64,000 nt of DNA from Bacteroidota bacterium (lineage in GTDB: Bacteria; Bacteroidota; Bacteroidia; JAHEXY01): positions 495,591-559,590 of the forward strand of contig JAHEXY010000002.1 in the NCBI GenBank assembly GCA_023251875.1, given 5' to 3'. The notes under the pieces were generated by a model. It searched no databases and was not told the DNA's origin. It saw nothing but the letters and a program-made list of their open reading frames with translations. Both the position numbers and the translations under genes were made by a program. Of the stretch, positions 5,905-11,519 are shown one piece after another (the first letter of the stretch is position 1; each line of letters starts with the position of its first letter).

Positions 5905-6306
5905 TTACATAAATTGTTTTAGCCACTCAATTGCTTTTTCTTTATCATCAAATAATCTTGAGGGTACTTTAGGTGTATTAATGGCAAGAAAAAAATTACC
6001 CAAGGTTTTAGCAAGAAAAGAATTGGTTAATAATGCACCGGCTGTTACATACTGAGAACCTTCTTTGCCCATGTATTCTCTGGCTTCTTTGCTAATAGAC
6101 CGTATTCCTCTTAAATCTATTACAAAAGGATAGGCGGTATGTTTGCAAAAATTAATTCTGGTTTCAACGCAGTGTTTTGCAATGTCAAGATTCATGTGAA
6201 TGTTTGGTGCGAACTGGCCAAATAAAATACCATTTTCGAGGCGGAGTCTTACATATTGAGTTTCTATTTGCATGTGAGGTATGGGGTAAGTTGAGGCTAA
6301 TACCAT
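5905..6306 (-). CDS. STAS/SEC14-like (DUF7793-type) small protein
   Basis: This 133-residue soluble protein follows the pattern LRLENGILFGQF, then AYPFVIDLRGIRSISKEARE, then a C-terminal KVPSRLFDDKEKAIEWLKQF. That is the layout I associate with DUF7793, a SpoIIAA-like fold found in Bacteroidota. It resembles the two tandem proteins at 10701-11519 in the shared VxVDLxxxG strand-turn and the FFS/FxDKEKAxxWLK ending, though it is clearly more distant. The start could instead be Met12 (6273). It closes the signalling island on the downstream side, which suggests a role in the same pathway, but no biochemical function is known. Confidence 0.72.
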   Translation of the reverse strand: MVLASTYPIPHMQIETQYVRLRLENGILFGQFAPNIHMNLDIAKHCVETRINFCKHTAYPFVIDLRGIRSISKEAREYMGKEGSQYVTAGALLTNSFLAKTLGNFFLAINTPKVPSRLFDDKEKAIEWLKQFM

Positions 6307-6437: not shown

Positions 6438-6612
6438 TCAACTCCTATCACCATCCATGTTTTTATCTGAGTCAATATTTTTATCGCTATCTATAATAAA
6501 CGCTATGCTTTTATCTCCATCACTTATTTTATCCCCATCCATATTTTTATCACTATCAATTACCCAAGCAATACTTTTATCTCCGTCAGTTGTTTTATCA
6601 CCATCCATTGCC
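6438..6612 (-). repeat. Tandem DGDK/DSDKN coding repeat
   Basis: The 3' end of the receiver gene repeats units reading DGDK, DSDKN and MDGD. A larger unit of about 66 bases (DGDKSIAWVIDSDKN, then DGDKSIAFIIDSDKN) is present twice. The DNA copies are similar but not identical, so the duplication is not brand new. Confidence 0.8.
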
Positions 6613-7253
6613 TGATCTTTGAGACTTTTAAATTTAAAAGCATTTTGAAATAAAAACACCATGCTAATATAAAGTACAATAAAGCCCCAGTTTAAATAAC
6701 GCATCAAGCTATTTTGTTTTTTTAATTTTTCGTTCATTTCTATTTCCATTGCTATGTGCCTAACAATACTTTTTATTTTACTGTATGAATTAATTCCTTT
6801 TGACACATAATCATGGGCATTATTTTTAATGCTTAGCAAAGCAATGTCTATATTGTTTTGAGAAGATAGCATAATCACTTTTGCATCTGGGCATATATAT
6901 TTAAATCTTCTCAATGCCATTGATCCATTCATGGCTGCATTGTTATGGCCATCTAAATAATAATCTAATATGATGATGGATGGTTGCAATAATTTCGATT
7001 CTTCAATACAGGCTTCGGCACTTGTAAATGTTTTAATTTCTATGCGTTCATGATGCATGGATGTTAATGTATGTTGCAGGGTGTGCAATAAAATCCTGTC
7101 ATCATCAACTAAATAAATTAAAATTTTGTTTGTGCTTGTGTCTTTAATATCACGGTTAATCTGTCTAGAAATTTTATTAATTGACCTTGAATTATTTTTC
7201 ACACTGCTCTGTGCATCGACAAGAACCGGTGTATTTAAAATTTCTGTTTTCAT
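6438..7253 (-). CDS. Membrane-tethered receiver-domain protein with acidic C-terminal repeats
   Basis: Residues 43-168 form a response-regulator receiver domain. It has an acidic pocket VDDD (50-52), phospho-acceptor Asp97 in IIILDYYLDG, a conserved Ser130 and Lys152 in YVSKG. One strong membrane helix follows at about 187-205, and then a 55-residue tail built from DGDK and DSDKN units. There is no DNA-binding or enzymatic output domain. If the receiver is cytoplasmic, the acidic tail is periplasmic. It is a paralogue of the protein at 7354-7977, which lacks the tail. The output is unknown; it could be a phosphate sink, a membrane recruiter or a cation-responsive protein. Confidence 0.8.
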   Translation of the reverse strand: MKTEILNTPVLVDAQSSVKNNSRSINKISRQINRDIKDTSTNKILIYLVDDDRILLHTLQHTLTSMHHERIEIKTFTSAEACIEESKLLQPSIIILDYYLDGHNNAAMNGSMALRRFKYICPDAKVIMLSSQNNIDIALLSIKNNAHDYVSKGINSYSKIKSIVRHIAMEIEMNEKLKKQNSLMRYLNWGFIVLYISMVFLFQNAFKFKSLKDQAMDGDKTTDGDKSIAWVIDSDKNMDGDKISDGDKSIAFIIDSDKNIDSDKNMDGDRS

Positions 7254-7353
7254 AGCCTTAGTTTTTGGGTTAGTGTATAAGTAGTTTTTTTATTTACTTA
7301 CTTATACGCTCATTTTTATCTTTTATTGATAAAAATTAGATGAACACCATTAT

Positions 7354-7977
7354 TTACCTGTTAAAGATTAATGAAAACATAAAAAGAAAAGCAAGTAATA
7401 AAATAATTACAACATTAATTATTACATAATTTCTTTTTTCATTTATAATAGCTTTATTGGTTTTTATATCCCCTACTAAATGTTCAACAATATTTTTAAT
7501 TCGCATAAAAGCGTTTTCGTTTTTTGATACATAATCATACGCTTTGTATTTTATGGTATCTAATGCAACATCAACATTGGTTTGCCCGGATAAAATAATT
7601 ACTTTGATATTGGGATGGGTTTGTTTAATTTTTTTCAACACTTTTATTCCATTCATGGCGTCATAATATTTACCATCGAGATAATAATCGAGAATTATTA
7701 TTGAGGGATTTAATGGAAGGTTGGCAATACATTCTTCCCCAGTGGCAAATATTTTAATTTCAGTTTGTTTATGGCTTTTACTATCTGATATGGCGTGCGA
7801 CAATGCTTTTGAAAAGATAGGATCATCATCTACCACAAAAATTACAATTTTATCTCTTAAATAATTTTTGTTAGCGGAATCAGAAGAGTTAATACTTTTA
7901 GGAATTGACCATTTGTAATTTTGCATTGCCCAGTGCTCTCCATCAGAAACAAATGCATTGATTATTCCTTCGCTCAT
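7354..7977 (-). CDS. Membrane-tethered receiver-domain protein
   Basis: This is a 207-residue paralogue of the neighbour downstream. Residues 43-168 are a receiver domain with VDDD at 49-52, Asp97 in IIILDYYLDG, Ser130 and Lys152 in YVSKN. The C-terminus is one membrane helix (about 184-204, VIINVVIILLLAFLFMFSLI) and ends there without a tail. The N-terminal 40 residues are unlike any domain I recognise. The conserved phosphorylation residues suggest it can accept phosphate from the kinase/Hpt pair encoded upstream. How a receiver fixed to the membrane without an output domain signals is not apparent. Confidence 0.82.
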   Translation of the reverse strand: MSEGIINAFVSDGEHWAMQNYKWSIPKSINSSDSANKNYLRDKIVIFVVDDDPIFSKALSHAISDSKSHKQTEIKIFATGEECIANLPLNPSIIILDYYLDGKYYDAMNGIKVLKKIKQTHPNIKVIILSGQTNVDVALDTIKYKAYDYVSKNENAFMRIKNIVEHLVGDIKTNKAIINEKRNYVIINVVIILLLAFLFMFSLIFNR

Positions 7978-8114
7978 AGTGTTTTATTTTAGGTTAAAAA
8001 CCATATAGGCTCTTAATCTTTATACGTAAAAAAAACGATGCTATTAGGGTAAACTCGGTGAAAGCGACTTTTTGCCGGTTAAAAATGAGAAAACGGGATA
8101 CGAAAATAGATTCT

Positions 8115-8232
8115 TAAGGGCAGTTCCCAAAATTGATTTTTTTGCTTCCTCTTCCTTAATCTCCCGAATCGAGTTCGGGACATGCTCTCTCTAAGAGTGG
8201 GACACAAATTGTAATTTTGGGAACCGCCCTTA
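8115..8232. repeat. Hairpin element family A, copy 1 (inverted, with inner insertion)
   Basis: End arms AAGGGCAGTTCCCAAAATT and AATTTTGGGAACCGCCCTT pair almost perfectly. The inside contains the GCTTCCTCTTCCTTAATC core plus an extra palindrome (CCCGAATCGAGTTCGGG), making this copy longer than the others. The final TTA is the stop codon of the LytTR gene read on the minus strand. Confidence 0.85.
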
Positions 8233-8925
8233 AATCATATTTAATTGTTTATATAGCGCATCTTTATATTTAGGGCCAATGGGTATGGAAGTATCTTTTA
8301 ATGAAATGGCCATATCGTCTATCGCTTGAATTTTATCAATTCTAACAATGTACGACCTATGCGCGCGAGCATAGGCGTGAGGAAACAATTTTTCTTCTAT
8401 AGCTGTTAATGTAGCGTAAATGGTATGGGTATTTGATTGAGTATAAATGCTTACATAATCACCTTCTGCTTTTAAATAAATAATATCAGGCCCATTAATT
8501 TTAATTCTTTGCGATCCTTCTTTTATAAATAAAACATCTTCATGTTGTAATGGTGGGATATTTATTAACTCTTGAACTTTTTGAATGGCTTTATAAAAGC
8601 GAGGATAAGTAAGCGGTTTTACCAGATAATCCAATACATGGTTTTCAAATGCTTCTGTGGCAAAATCTTTATGAGAGGTAGTAAGTATGATTGCCTTTAT
8701 TTTATTTTGCAGTGATTGTATGAGTTCTATTCCGTTCATGTCAGGCATTTCTATATCTACAAATAAAATATCAATAGGCACATTGCTTTTATTTATAATA
8801 TTTAAAGCTTCTATGGGAGATGAAAATGTATGGAGCAAATTCAATCCGCTTGTTTTGCGAATAAACTCTTCCGTGATTCTTTGACAAGGTGTATCATCAT
8901 CTATTATTACACAATTGAAATTCAT
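8230..8925 (-). CDS. LytTR family response regulator
   Basis: An N-terminal receiver domain (IIDDD near the start, phospho-acceptor Asp in LFVDIEMPDMNG, LDYLVKPL lysine) is followed by a LytTR DNA-binding domain (LFIKEGSQRIKI, IIYLKAEGDYVSIYT, RAHRSYIVRIDKI). Proteins of this type bind short direct repeats at promoters when phosphorylated. I start at the ATG (MNFNCVIIDDD) because the receiver begins directly there; an upstream ATG at 8955 would add ten residues. It lies directly downstream of the Hpt gene and is the only recognisable DNA-binding output in the island. Its stop codon lies inside a hairpin element. Confidence 0.9.
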   Translation of the reverse strand: MNFNCVIIDDDTPCQRITEEFIRKTSGLNLLHTFSSPIEALNIINKSNVPIDILFVDIEMPDMNGIELIQSLQNKIKAIILTTSHKDFATEAFENHVLDYLVKPLTYPRFYKAIQKVQELINIPPLQHEDVLFIKEGSQRIKINGPDIIYLKAEGDYVSIYTQSNTHTIYATLTAIEEKLFPHAYARAHRSYIVRIDKIQAIDDMAISLKDTSIPIGPKYKDALYKQLNMI

Positions 8926-8963
8926 ATGTAGATAATTTATTTTTGTTTTAAACATTAATGCTC

Positions 8964-9347
8964 CTATAAATATTCACTTTTTAGTTCTAGCAAAGCCTGT
9001 TGGCATGTGTCAATTACTTTATTTACCAAACCTGGTATTTGCTCGAGATTGGTTTGTTCTAAAGAAAAATTTTCAATATTTCTAATATCTTCATAAATGC
9101 TGTTTATACCCAACATTTCAAAATGAGGTTTTAGTTTATGAGCAATTCGGTTTAAGCGATGCCAATTTTTTTCTTGCAACGTTGTTTGAATTTCGTCAAG
9201 CAAGGAGGGTATTTCCGCACGTAGCATCTGAAGCATTTCTTTCACAAATGCATCATTACCATCGGCAATGGTGTTAAGGTAATTAAGATTGATATGCTTA
9301 GTAGTTTCCATAGTATTGAAGTTTGTGTTTTTATCCCCCCCCCCCAT
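8964..9347 (-). CDS. Histidine phosphotransfer (Hpt) domain protein
   Basis: This is a single Hpt four-helix domain with phospho-accepting His70 in RIAHKLKP. It should shuttle phosphate between the hybrid kinase receiver and the LytTR or membrane receivers. The ATG at 9347 uses the first G of an 11-G run and overlaps the kinase gene by 17 bases, giving MGGGDKNTN at the N-terminus. A second ATG at 9311 (METTKH) would give a more normal Hpt start and is a credible alternative. One base fewer in the G run would place this frame in line with the kinase. The spacing to the LytTR gene is tight, so the two are probably one transcript. Confidence 0.87.
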   Translation of the reverse strand: MGGGDKNTNFNTMETTKHINLNYLNTIADGNDAFVKEMLQMLRAEIPSLLDEIQTTLQEKNWHRLNRIAHKLKPHFEMLGINSIYEDIRNIENFSLEQTNLEQIPGLVNKVIDTCQQALLELKSEYL

Positions 9348-10704
9348 TTTTTATATTATTTACTTTCAGCATGTTACACATTTTTTCGTATAACATTTTT
9401 TTATTAAATGGTTTGGATATATAATCGTTCATACCGGCAGATTTACATTTATCTATTTCTCCTTCCATAGCATGTGCCGTCATGGCAATAATAGGAACAG
9501 ATGTCATTGGGGTTTGCATTTTTCTAATTTCACGAGCGGCATCATAGCCATCCAGTTCGGGCATTTGAATATCCATTAAAATAATATCGAATATTTCGTT
9601 TGATACTTTTTCAACTGCTATGCGTCCGTTTTCAGCAAAATGTATATTGCAATCCCATTTGTTTAATACGGTTTGAGCTAAGAATCTATTAATGGCATTG
9701 TCTTCGACCAAAAGAACATTTATATTTTTTAATTTATTTTGAAAATCTGTTTTCTGTTCTTCATTTATTTCATGTATTGCATCACCTTTTTTAAAAGGTA
9801 AATGAAAGGTAAAGGTAGTGCCTTCATTTAATTTGCTTTGTAGGGCTATTTTCCCTCCTTGTAATTCTACCAAACTTTTAACAATGGTTAAACCTAAGCC
9901 GGTGCCTCCATATTTACGTGTTGTATCATTAGTTGCCTGCGTAAAACTTTCAAAAATGGTGTCAATTTTATTTTCCGGAATACCTATGCCGGTATCTGAT
10001 ATTGAAAACTCAAGTAAATAATCATCTTGATTTAATGCCTGAGAAAAAATTTCAATTTTTATTCTTCCGCTTTCAGTAAACTTAATTGAGTTGCTAGCCA
10101 GATTAATTAGTATTTGCCGTAGTTTAGTTACGTCTCCAACTAGTAGAACGGGGGTATTATTTGATATGGAATAAGTAAGTGAAAGATTTTTGCTATTTGC
10201 AGTAAATTGCAAGGTTTGAATAATATTTTCAAGAGTTTCTTCCAGATGAAAAGGGGTTTTTTCAAAGGTTATTTTCCCCGCCTCTATTTTAGAAAAATCA
10301 AGCACCTCATTTATGATGGTTAATAAATTGTCGGCTGATATTTTTATAGCCTCTATACATTTTTTCTGATCCGGATTGAGTTGTTGATCCAACAAAATAT
10401 CCGTCATCCCTACAATGGCATTCATGGGTGTTCTAATTTCATGACTCATATTGGCTAAAAATTGTTCTTTTATTTTTTTTGCCAATTCAGCTTGTTCCTT
10501 AGCTTTTTTCATTTCTTTATTGGCAGCCTCTAATTCTTTTCGCGATTTTATTTCATCAATCATCATATTTATACCCATTGCCAATGCATCAAACTCATCA
10601 TTATCTCCGGTTAAGGGTACTTCAACATCATAGTTGCCCTTTGCAACTTCCATTACAACATTTAATACCCCTTCTATATAAATTGCAGATAGCATATTGG
10701 TCAT
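9331..10704 (-). CDS. Soluble hybrid histidine kinase (HAMP-like, HisKA, HATPase, receiver)
   Basis: There is a HAMP-like region at about 15-52 without any membrane helix, then a coiled coil. A HisKA domain has phospho-accepting His88 (NMSHEIRTPMNAIVGM). The HATPase domain has its N box near 190-210, DTGIGIP at 237-243 and GGTGLGL at 266-272. A receiver domain from 327 has Asp378 in IILMDIQMPELDG and Lys431. No sensory domain is visible, so input must come from a partner. The best candidate is the STAS-like protein whose gene overlaps the start by 4 bases. The protein ends in NGGGG, encoded by the 11-G run, and a single-base change there would fuse it to the Hpt protein. Confidence 0.93.
   Translation of the reverse strand: MTNMLSAIYIEGVLNVVMEVAKGNYDVEVPLTGDNDEFDALAMGINMMIDEIKSRKELEAANKEMKKAKEQAELAKKIKEQFLANMSHEIRTPMNAIVGMTDILLDQQLNPDQKKCIEAIKISADNLLTIINEVLDFSKIEAGKITFEKTPFHLEETLENIIQTLQFTANSKNLSLTYSISNNTPVLLVGDVTKLRQILINLASNSIKFTESGRIKIEIFSQALNQDDYLLEFSISDTGIGIPENKIDTIFESFTQATNDTTRKYGGTGLGLTIVKSLVELQGGKIALQSKLNEGTTFTFHLPFKKGDAIHEINEEQKTDFQNKLKNINVLLVEDNAINRFLAQTVLNKWDCNIHFAENGRIAVEKVSNEIFDIILMDIQMPELDGYDAAREIRKMQTPMTSVPIIAMTAHAMEGEIDKCKSAGMNDYISKPFNKKMLYEKMCNMLKVNNIKNGGGG
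9335..9345 (-). repeat. G11 homopolymer at the kinase/Hpt junction
   Basis: Eleven C on the plus strand, which is eleven G in the coding strand, form the last codons of the hybrid kinase and the first codons of the Hpt gene. Such a run is very unusual in this AT-rich sequence and is a classic substrate for slippage in replication, transcription or translation. It is also a classic place for sequencing error. Confidence 0.95.
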
Positions 10705-11093
10705 ATTTTTTCTTTAAGCCATTTCATGGCTGCATCTTTTGTGCTAAAAAATTTACATTTTTTGTTTCCCGAAAGTCCAATATAAAAAGAAGCCAATAGC
10801 TTAGCAACGGGATGTAAGCCCCATAAAGCAACTCTTACCGGCCTTTCACCCTGATTACATAAATCAGTCCATACGTTTCTGGCCAATGTAGTTTGTTTTC
10901 CGGCTTTATTTAAATCAACCAAAACGCGAATAGGACCATCGAACTTTGCATAAAGGCACAATGATTTTTCTTTAAACTGTACTGCCATTTCATCATCAAT
11001 AGCCCCAATGGTATTAGCATAAATTATATTGTCGTCAGCTAAATAGTGATGGTGCTGGCCAACATAAAATTCATGAATAATAGTTTGTTTCAT
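10701..11093 (-). CDS. STAS/SEC14-like small protein, tandem copy 2
   Basis: This 130-residue soluble protein carries the core strand VLVDLNKAGKQ, the segment RPVRVALWGLHPVAKLLASF and the ending KKCKFFSTKDAAMKWLKEKI. It is closely similar over its whole length to the gene just upstream (11118-11519), so the two arose by tandem duplication. The fold looks SpoIIAA/STAS-like, a class often used for protein-protein switching, but no phosphorylatable serine motif is certain. The stop overlaps the kinase ATG by 4 bases (ATGA type), which implies coupled translation and equal dosage with the sensorless kinase. Confidence 0.75.
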   Translation of the reverse strand: MKQTIIHEFYVGQHHHYLADDNIIYANTIGAIDDEMAVQFKEKSLCLYAKFDGPIRVLVDLNKAGKQTTLARNVWTDLCNQGERPVRVALWGLHPVAKLLASFYIGLSGNKKCKFFSTKDAAMKWLKEKI

Positions 11094-11117
11094 GTGTATA
11101 GGGTTTATTTTAGATTT

Positions 11118-11519
11118 TTAGGGTTCTATTTTTTCTTTAAGCCAACTTAAAGCCTTTTCTTTATCACTAAAAAACTTGCTTTTTTTATTATCCGTTATAC
11201 CGGCAAAAAAAGAAGCTATTATTCTTGCTACCGGATGCAAACCCCAAAGAGCAACTTTTACCGGCCTTGCACCTAAATCTGTTAATTCTGCAAATACTTT
11301 TCTTGCTTCGGCCGATTGTTTACCTGCTTTATTAAGATCAACCAATACACGTTTGGGCCCTTCAAACATGGTATGCAGTTTTGTAGAAACAGCTTTGCAT
11401 CGCAATGCTTGTTCATAATCGACTTCACCATTGAGCGTTACACAAATGATATAATCGTCAGTTAAGCAATAATGATGACGATCAACGTAATATTCTTGAA
11501 TGATGGTTTGTGTGCCCAT
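11118..11519 (-). CDS. STAS/SEC14-like small protein, tandem copy 1
   Basis: This is the first gene of the island and a paralogue of the next one. Shared blocks are VLVDLNKAGKQ, RPVKVALWGLHPVARIIASF and KKSKFFSDKEKALSWLKEKI. The N-terminal strand (IIQEYYVDRHHYCLTDDYII) is the most divergent part. No membrane segment or catalytic motif is visible. The gap to copy 2 is 24 bases. The region upstream to 11778 holds no gene, and I could not find a clear minus-strand promoter in it. A regulatory role on the kinase is inferred only from gene order. Confidence 0.75.
   Translation of the reverse strand: MGTQTIIQEYYVDRHHYCLTDDYIICVTLNGEVDYEQALRCKAVSTKLHTMFEGPKRVLVDLNKAGKQSAEARKVFAELTDLGARPVKVALWGLHPVARIIASFFAGITDNKKSKFFSDKEKALSWLKEKIEP

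Follow-up and report, generated by a model that had tools for sequence, protein, structure and literature searches.

In the textbook layout of two-component signalling, a membrane sensor signals to a soluble response regulator. The same holds for the Rcs phosphorelay, in which the sensor and the Hpt protein lie in the membrane and the last member, RcsB, is a soluble DNA-binding regulator. Single-domain regulators such as CheY, Spo0F and EpsW are soluble too; they consist of a receiver only and work through protein contact. In Myxococcus xanthus, EpsW~P activates EpsZ, a membrane enzyme of exopolysaccharide synthesis, which provides a precedent for a single-domain regulator acting on a membrane enzyme (PMC12802240). 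Response regulators of archaea with the membrane-anchored output domain MetOD3 have been mentioned in a single line (PMC5847659).

The window analysed here is the whole stretch of 64,000 nucleotides, from a Bacteroidota genome of 4.8 Mb that its named relatives place in the class Bacteroidia. A preliminary description of this DNA placed two receiver proteins within 6438-7977, and two minus-strand open reading frames lie exactly there, at 6438-7253 and 7354-7977. We refer to their products as P1 and P2, respectively. P2 is the clear case, and its features are as follows.

7354-7977, minus strand: P2, receiver-transmembrane (TM) protein of 207 aa (open reading frame and PF00072)
7513-7848, minus strand: receiver domain of P2, aa 44-155 (PF00072, 3.5e-16; 59.8 bits against a Pfam cut-off of 30.2)
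7687-7689, minus strand: codon of phospho-Asp97 of P2 (D97 invariant in 59 relatives)
7363-7425, minus strand: predicted C-terminal TM helix of P2, about aa 185-205 (hydrophobicity and AlphaFold2 helix)

The predicted TM helix of P2 reaches a Kyte-Doolittle value of 3.04 over 19 residues (186-204), which was matched by 9 of 20,000 shuffles. An AlphaFold2 model built with 59 sequences shows a standard receiver in which alpha5, the linker and the TM segment form a single helix (aa 156-206, pLDDT 92-98). P2 is therefore a clean receiver-TM case and a clear member of the family described below. Owing to the C-terminal TM helix predicted from its sequence, it is not expected to be a soluble, CheY-like single-domain regulator.

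Both proteins were said to retain a complete receiver active site, and we find D50/D51, D97, S130 and K152 in each of them. Among 59 relatives, D51, D97 and K152 are invariant (59/59), and every sequence has Ser or Thr at position 130. The motif IIILDYYLDG, which had been called unusual, is indeed common to P1 and P2; it is unusual only in comparison with textbook receivers and not among the 59 relatives, of which 58 share L96, all share D97, 47 share Y98 and 54 share L100. The reported lack of an output domain is also borne out. PF00072 is the sole Pfam family above its cut-off in either protein, NtrC-type AAA+ sigma-54 and Fis-type DNA-binding domains are absent (Pfam), and only helix or coil follows the receiver in the AlphaFold2 models. 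The further claim that both proteins end in one hydrophobic helix holds for P2 but not for P1, which has a marginal helix followed by a tail of about 55 residues.

6438-7253, minus strand: P1, protein of 271 aa (receiver, marginal TM helix, repeat tail)
6786-7124, minus strand: receiver domain of P1, aa 44-156 (PF00072, 4.4e-13; 49.8 bits against a Pfam cut-off of 30.2)
6963-6965, minus strand: codon of phospho-Asp97 of P1
6636-6698, minus strand: marginal TM helix of P1, about aa 186-206 (homologous position; weak hydrophobicity)
6441-6611, minus strand: Asp/Lys-rich tail of P1, aa 215-271 (22-aa unit present twice; low-confidence coil in AlphaFold2)

The P1 helix is the weakest hydrophobic segment that we encountered. 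Its Kyte-Doolittle value of 1.54 is equalled by 28% of P1's own shuffles, and its insertion-type score of +0.98 compares with a family range of -3.9 to -0.3. At the homologous position, the helix region is unusual at the level of 102 in 5000, and its 21-residue uncharged run at 357 in 5000. AlphaFold2 models a helix at 156-216 and then low-confidence coil. Insertion of this helix is thus doubtful on its sequence, it may not insert, and P1 is a weak member of the family and a doubtful case. Its tail contains a tandem repeat at 6475-6608 (period 66 nt, 80% match), a pattern that suggests an origin by tandem duplication of 66 nt; a genome search found no second copy of the tail sequence anywhere in the same genome. 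The DGDK/DSDK units of the tail resemble a metal-binding Asp repeat. A match of the tail to TrAA12 (Pfam, E 0.0087), which lies below that family's cut-off, was rejected as reflecting composition and not homology. The preliminary description overlooked this repeat tail and the weakness of the helix, as well as the size of the family and the inverted arrangement of soluble sensor and membrane receiver, to which we now turn.

A single-protein scan of genome contigs with P2 yielded no confirmed relatives; the search that succeeded used a closer set of nine sequences. With P2 as query, receiver matches occur in 59 of 60 sampled class-level genomes, and a receiver of approximately 156-211 aa with a C-terminal TM helix, as judged from the fetched loci, occurs in 21 of the 60. 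A second search produced 80 named Bacteroidota loci with 102 genes of receiver size, and a C-terminal TM helix is predicted in 76 of these; the fraction is biased, because the relatives were found in part with receiver-TM queries. The collection comprises 85 distinct receiver-TM sequences from Bacteroidota. Judged by these sequences, the family is widespread in the phylum, and one clear receiver-TM protein (L163) comes from another class of it.

The anatomy of the 85 sequences is uniform in several respects. The conserved Lys lies a median of 32 residues before the start of the TM helix (middle half 31-34), and a median of 7 residues separates the 19-residue TM core from the C-terminus. Lys and Arg number 4.3 per 15 residues before the helix versus 0.9 after it, with an excess before it in 84 of the 85, and therefore the receiver is predicted to be on the cytoplasmic side. 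P2 and its family accordingly have the predicted features of C-tail-anchored proteins, namely one TM helix near the C-terminus and a cytoplasmic N-terminal part. A receiver joined to a membrane helix in place of an output domain is hence a genuine architecture that relatives conserve. Within one orthologue group, conservation is 43% in the TM helix versus 73% in the receiver; the start of alpha5 is conserved like the receiver, and the linker and TM helix are more variable. The moderate conservation of the TM helix is more in keeping with an anchoring role than with a specific TM-TM switch. Moreover, conservation is higher in alpha4 (mean entropy 1.28) than in alpha1, the docking helix (1.95), and this, with the conservation at the start of alpha5, speaks for a used output face.

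Several variants of the family were also observed. One subgroup has a conserved ...NPGWM after the TM helix, an end that a pure anchor would not need. A sister REC-only group without TM helix (L160, L161, L162, L164, L165, L045, L046, L048, L057 and L098) shares a conserved ...LxWYM[ED]RM-like end, and in the L045-L098 loci examined its members adjoin HK-REC-Hpt genes. At L037:5064-6626, a receiver of the TM family is fused to PAS and histidine kinase domains beside two receiver-TM genes.

In the window, P1 and P2 belong to a run of minus-strand genes.

5905-6306, minus strand: DUF7793/SpoIIAA-like protein, downstream of P1 (PF25056, 1.7e-38)
8230-8955, minus strand: LytTR response regulator (PF00072 and PF04397)
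8964-9347, minus strand: Hpt phosphotransfer protein (PF01627, 1.6e-8)
9331-10704, minus strand: hybrid histidine kinase with HAMP-HisKA-HATPase-REC make-up and no predicted TM helix
10701-11093, minus strand: DUF7793/SpoIIAA-like protein, upstream of the kinase (PF25056, 9.5e-7)
11118-11519, minus strand: DUF7793/SpoIIAA-like protein (PF25056, 4.3e-10)

Read along the minus strand, the order is two DUF7793 genes, the hybrid kinase, Hpt, the LytTR regulator, P2, P1 and a third DUF7793 gene. The kinase and Hpt genes overlap, and the gaps are 8 nt between Hpt and LytTR, 252 nt between LytTR and P2, and 100 nt between P2 and P1. Between the LytTR gene and P2 lies a 120-nt element (8114-8233) whose inverted ends of 21 nt are 95% complementary; with 49 matches in its own genome, it has the sequence character of a high-copy REP- or MITE-like repeat. 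Because of the 252-nt gap and this genome-wide repeat, it is unsure whether P2 is co-transcribed with the LytTR gene, and scans for promoters and terminators gave no excess over shuffles. The LytTR regulator is likely a co-regulated output branch. The genes of the DUF7793/SpoIIAA-like proteins, three in all, lie on both sides of the signalling cluster (5905-6306 and 10701-11519), and their products may be partners at its input or output that resemble anti-sigma antagonists. A paralogue in the same genome (L004/L055) is located after HK-REC and Hpt genes.

The tie to the neighbouring kinase, Hpt and LytTR system that had been proposed agrees with gene order both here and in relatives. An Hpt-encoding gene is immediately upstream on the same strand, at a distance of 4-233 nt, in 46 of 76 relatives, and is missing from that position in about 40%; as in the window, these receivers are genetically linked to a hybrid kinase and Hpt, as is expected of a terminal receiver. 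A kinase or Hpt gene lies within two genes of 47 of the 76, compared with 95 of 557 other genes at the same loci (Fisher 1.6e-15), and this background is conservative because the loci themselves are signalling loci. Among hybrid kinases of receiver-TM loci, 37 of the 43 examined lack a predicted TM helix, and therefore the usual layout is inverted, with a soluble sensor and a membrane-fixed receiver. In the commonest arrangement, a TPR-HisKA-HATPase-REC-Hpt kinase of approximately 880 aa (a make-up checked with Pfam in two kinases, Chitinophagaceae-type) precedes the receiver-TM gene; in the second, REC-HK-REC and Hpt genes precede it. In many operons, among them most of the Chitinophagaceae-type ones, the TM receiver is the sole regulator beside HK-REC-Hpt. 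No kinase gene lies near the receivers of a Bacteroidales-like group, and the upstream neighbour at one of its loci (L142) encodes a trypsin-like secreted protein that ends in a type IX sorting tail.

At six loci, a family receiver with a TM helix or short hydrophobic tail directly precedes Wza-Wzc genes. The order at L121 is sigma-54 regulator, H-NOX (haem-NO-binding, PF07700), HNOBA-PAS-HK-REC-Hpt, receiver-TM, Wza and Wzc. An H-NOX gene is found upstream of the hybrid kinase in L037, L074 and L121, and exopolysaccharide export genes follow in L074 and L121. Nitric oxide may, on these gene contents, be an input of some of the relays. A recurrent downstream gene of approximately 396 aa was considered as a partner and rejected, being aminotransferase-like by sequence reading and kept by vertical synteny. 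The largest group of a first neighbour clustering was set aside as apparently consisting of antisense ORFs of kinase genes.

The analysis thus yields an intact receiver, a TM charge pattern, a fixed spacing, linkage to Hpt and kinase genes, and mostly soluble kinases. In the reading that we favor, P2, and more weakly P1, are probably C-tail-anchored single-domain regulators that form the last Asp of a phosphorelay and switch membrane-located partners; the phosphotransfer, dimerisation, partner and output are what we infer. The hybrid kinase, usually soluble, would autophosphorylate, and phosphate would pass from His to Asp in the kinase's own REC, to His in Hpt and finally to Asp in a receiver that a single C-terminal TM helix holds at the inner membrane, on the cytoplasmic side. 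Phosphorylation would alter the alpha4-beta5-alpha5 face, which is predicted to be continuous with the membrane helix, and the altered receiver would dimerise or bind a membrane-located partner, changing the partner's activity. Polysaccharide export is a likely target in some relatives. In the window, phosphate from the kinase/Hpt pair could reach the LytTR regulator as well, so that one branch would act on transcription and another at the membrane.

The main rival, which the preliminary description had put forward along with membrane clustering and partner recruitment, is that the membrane receivers merely drain phosphate from Hpt and kinase, tuning the LytTR or another branch, with the helix confining the drain. 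The receivers have no output domain, and several stand in tandem beside a LytTR regulator, both in the window and in G005, G051, G012 and G036, which counts in favor of a sink. This reading is nonetheless unlikely, since many operons, most Chitinophagaceae-type ones included, offer no regulator to compete with the TM receiver, the better-conserved alpha4 is on the output side, outside the docking surface, and a drain has no use for a fixed Lys-to-TM spacing. Quite unlikely, in our estimate, is inside-out signalling, in which phosphorylation-driven dimerisation would shift the rigid alpha5-TM helix and with it a periplasmic C-terminal segment (NPGWM-COOH or the P1 tail); if true, a cytosolic signal would reach the envelope directly, with no transcriptional step. 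The anchored receiver might instead bring the soluble kinase and Hpt to the membrane or pole, with phosphorylation controlling their release. The 37 kinases without predicted TM helix suit such recruitment, as does the use of the alpha1 side as the usual docking face, but alpha1 is the less conserved of the two helices, and we regard recruitment as distinctly unlikely. That these are decaying regulators, which lost an output domain and acquired a hydrophobic end by chance, is hardly credible even with the closest receivers sitting in full-length NtrC-type regulators and the P1 helix being weak, and for the family as a whole sequence comparison already refutes it: the active site is invariant in 59 relatives, the TM position is fixed across many families, relatives have a TM helix where the output domain would be, and Chitinophagaceae-type orthologues are in stable synteny before the aminotransferase-like gene.

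Returning to membrane-anchored terminal receivers as the preferred reading, we compared the family with the systems introduced above. Like CheY, Spo0F and EpsW, its members are receivers only; unlike those soluble proteins, they have a C-terminal TM helix predicted to lie in the inner membrane and an NtrC-like receiver sequence. Their receivers are close to those of NtrC-family sigma-54 regulators (NtrC1, NtrX and LuxO, which are the nearest solved receivers by profile and fold), and in both alpha5 extends into a long linker helix, but the family lacks the AAA+ and DNA-binding domains and has a TM helix in their stead. Strong matches outside the class are nearly all full-length NtrC-type regulators. 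In a receiver tree, the TM family clusters with NtrC receivers and with some REC-only kin (support 97), and LytTR and hybrid-kinase receivers stand apart; this tree of 103 receivers was made from only 131 columns by a quick method and leaves many forks open. The simplest history is that the output part was probably swapped for a TM helix, which was then long conserved. As in archaeal MetOD3 regulators, compared by description only, the receiver is tied to the membrane; MetOD3 is an extra domain found in few methanogens, whereas the family has a single helix and is common in Bacteroidota (PMC5847659). The chain of hybrid kinase, Hpt and terminal receiver resembles Rcs-type His-Asp-His-Asp phosphorelays, with the layout inverted.

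Searches of non-subscription papers turned up no account of response regulators that are membrane-bound, transmembrane or tail-anchored in this way, the nearest match being the brief mention of the archaeal MetOD3 domain (PMC5847659), and among NCBIfam models only generic receiver models fit, with no curated model for the family. The receiver-TM family is thus apparently undescribed, and domain-based surveys file its members as plain 'response regulator'. Its novelty lies mainly in the inverted layout and the abundance; otherwise it is a variant of single-domain response regulators. A widespread Bacteroidota operon would thereby reverse the textbook layout, with a mostly soluble kinase relay and a receiver in the inner membrane. 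Because the operon of HK-REC-Hpt and REC-TM is simple, its function can be tested directly in Chitinophagaceae that are in culture, and the family would represent outputs of a definite kind, post-transcriptional and located at the membrane, which perhaps serve envelope or exopolysaccharide control.
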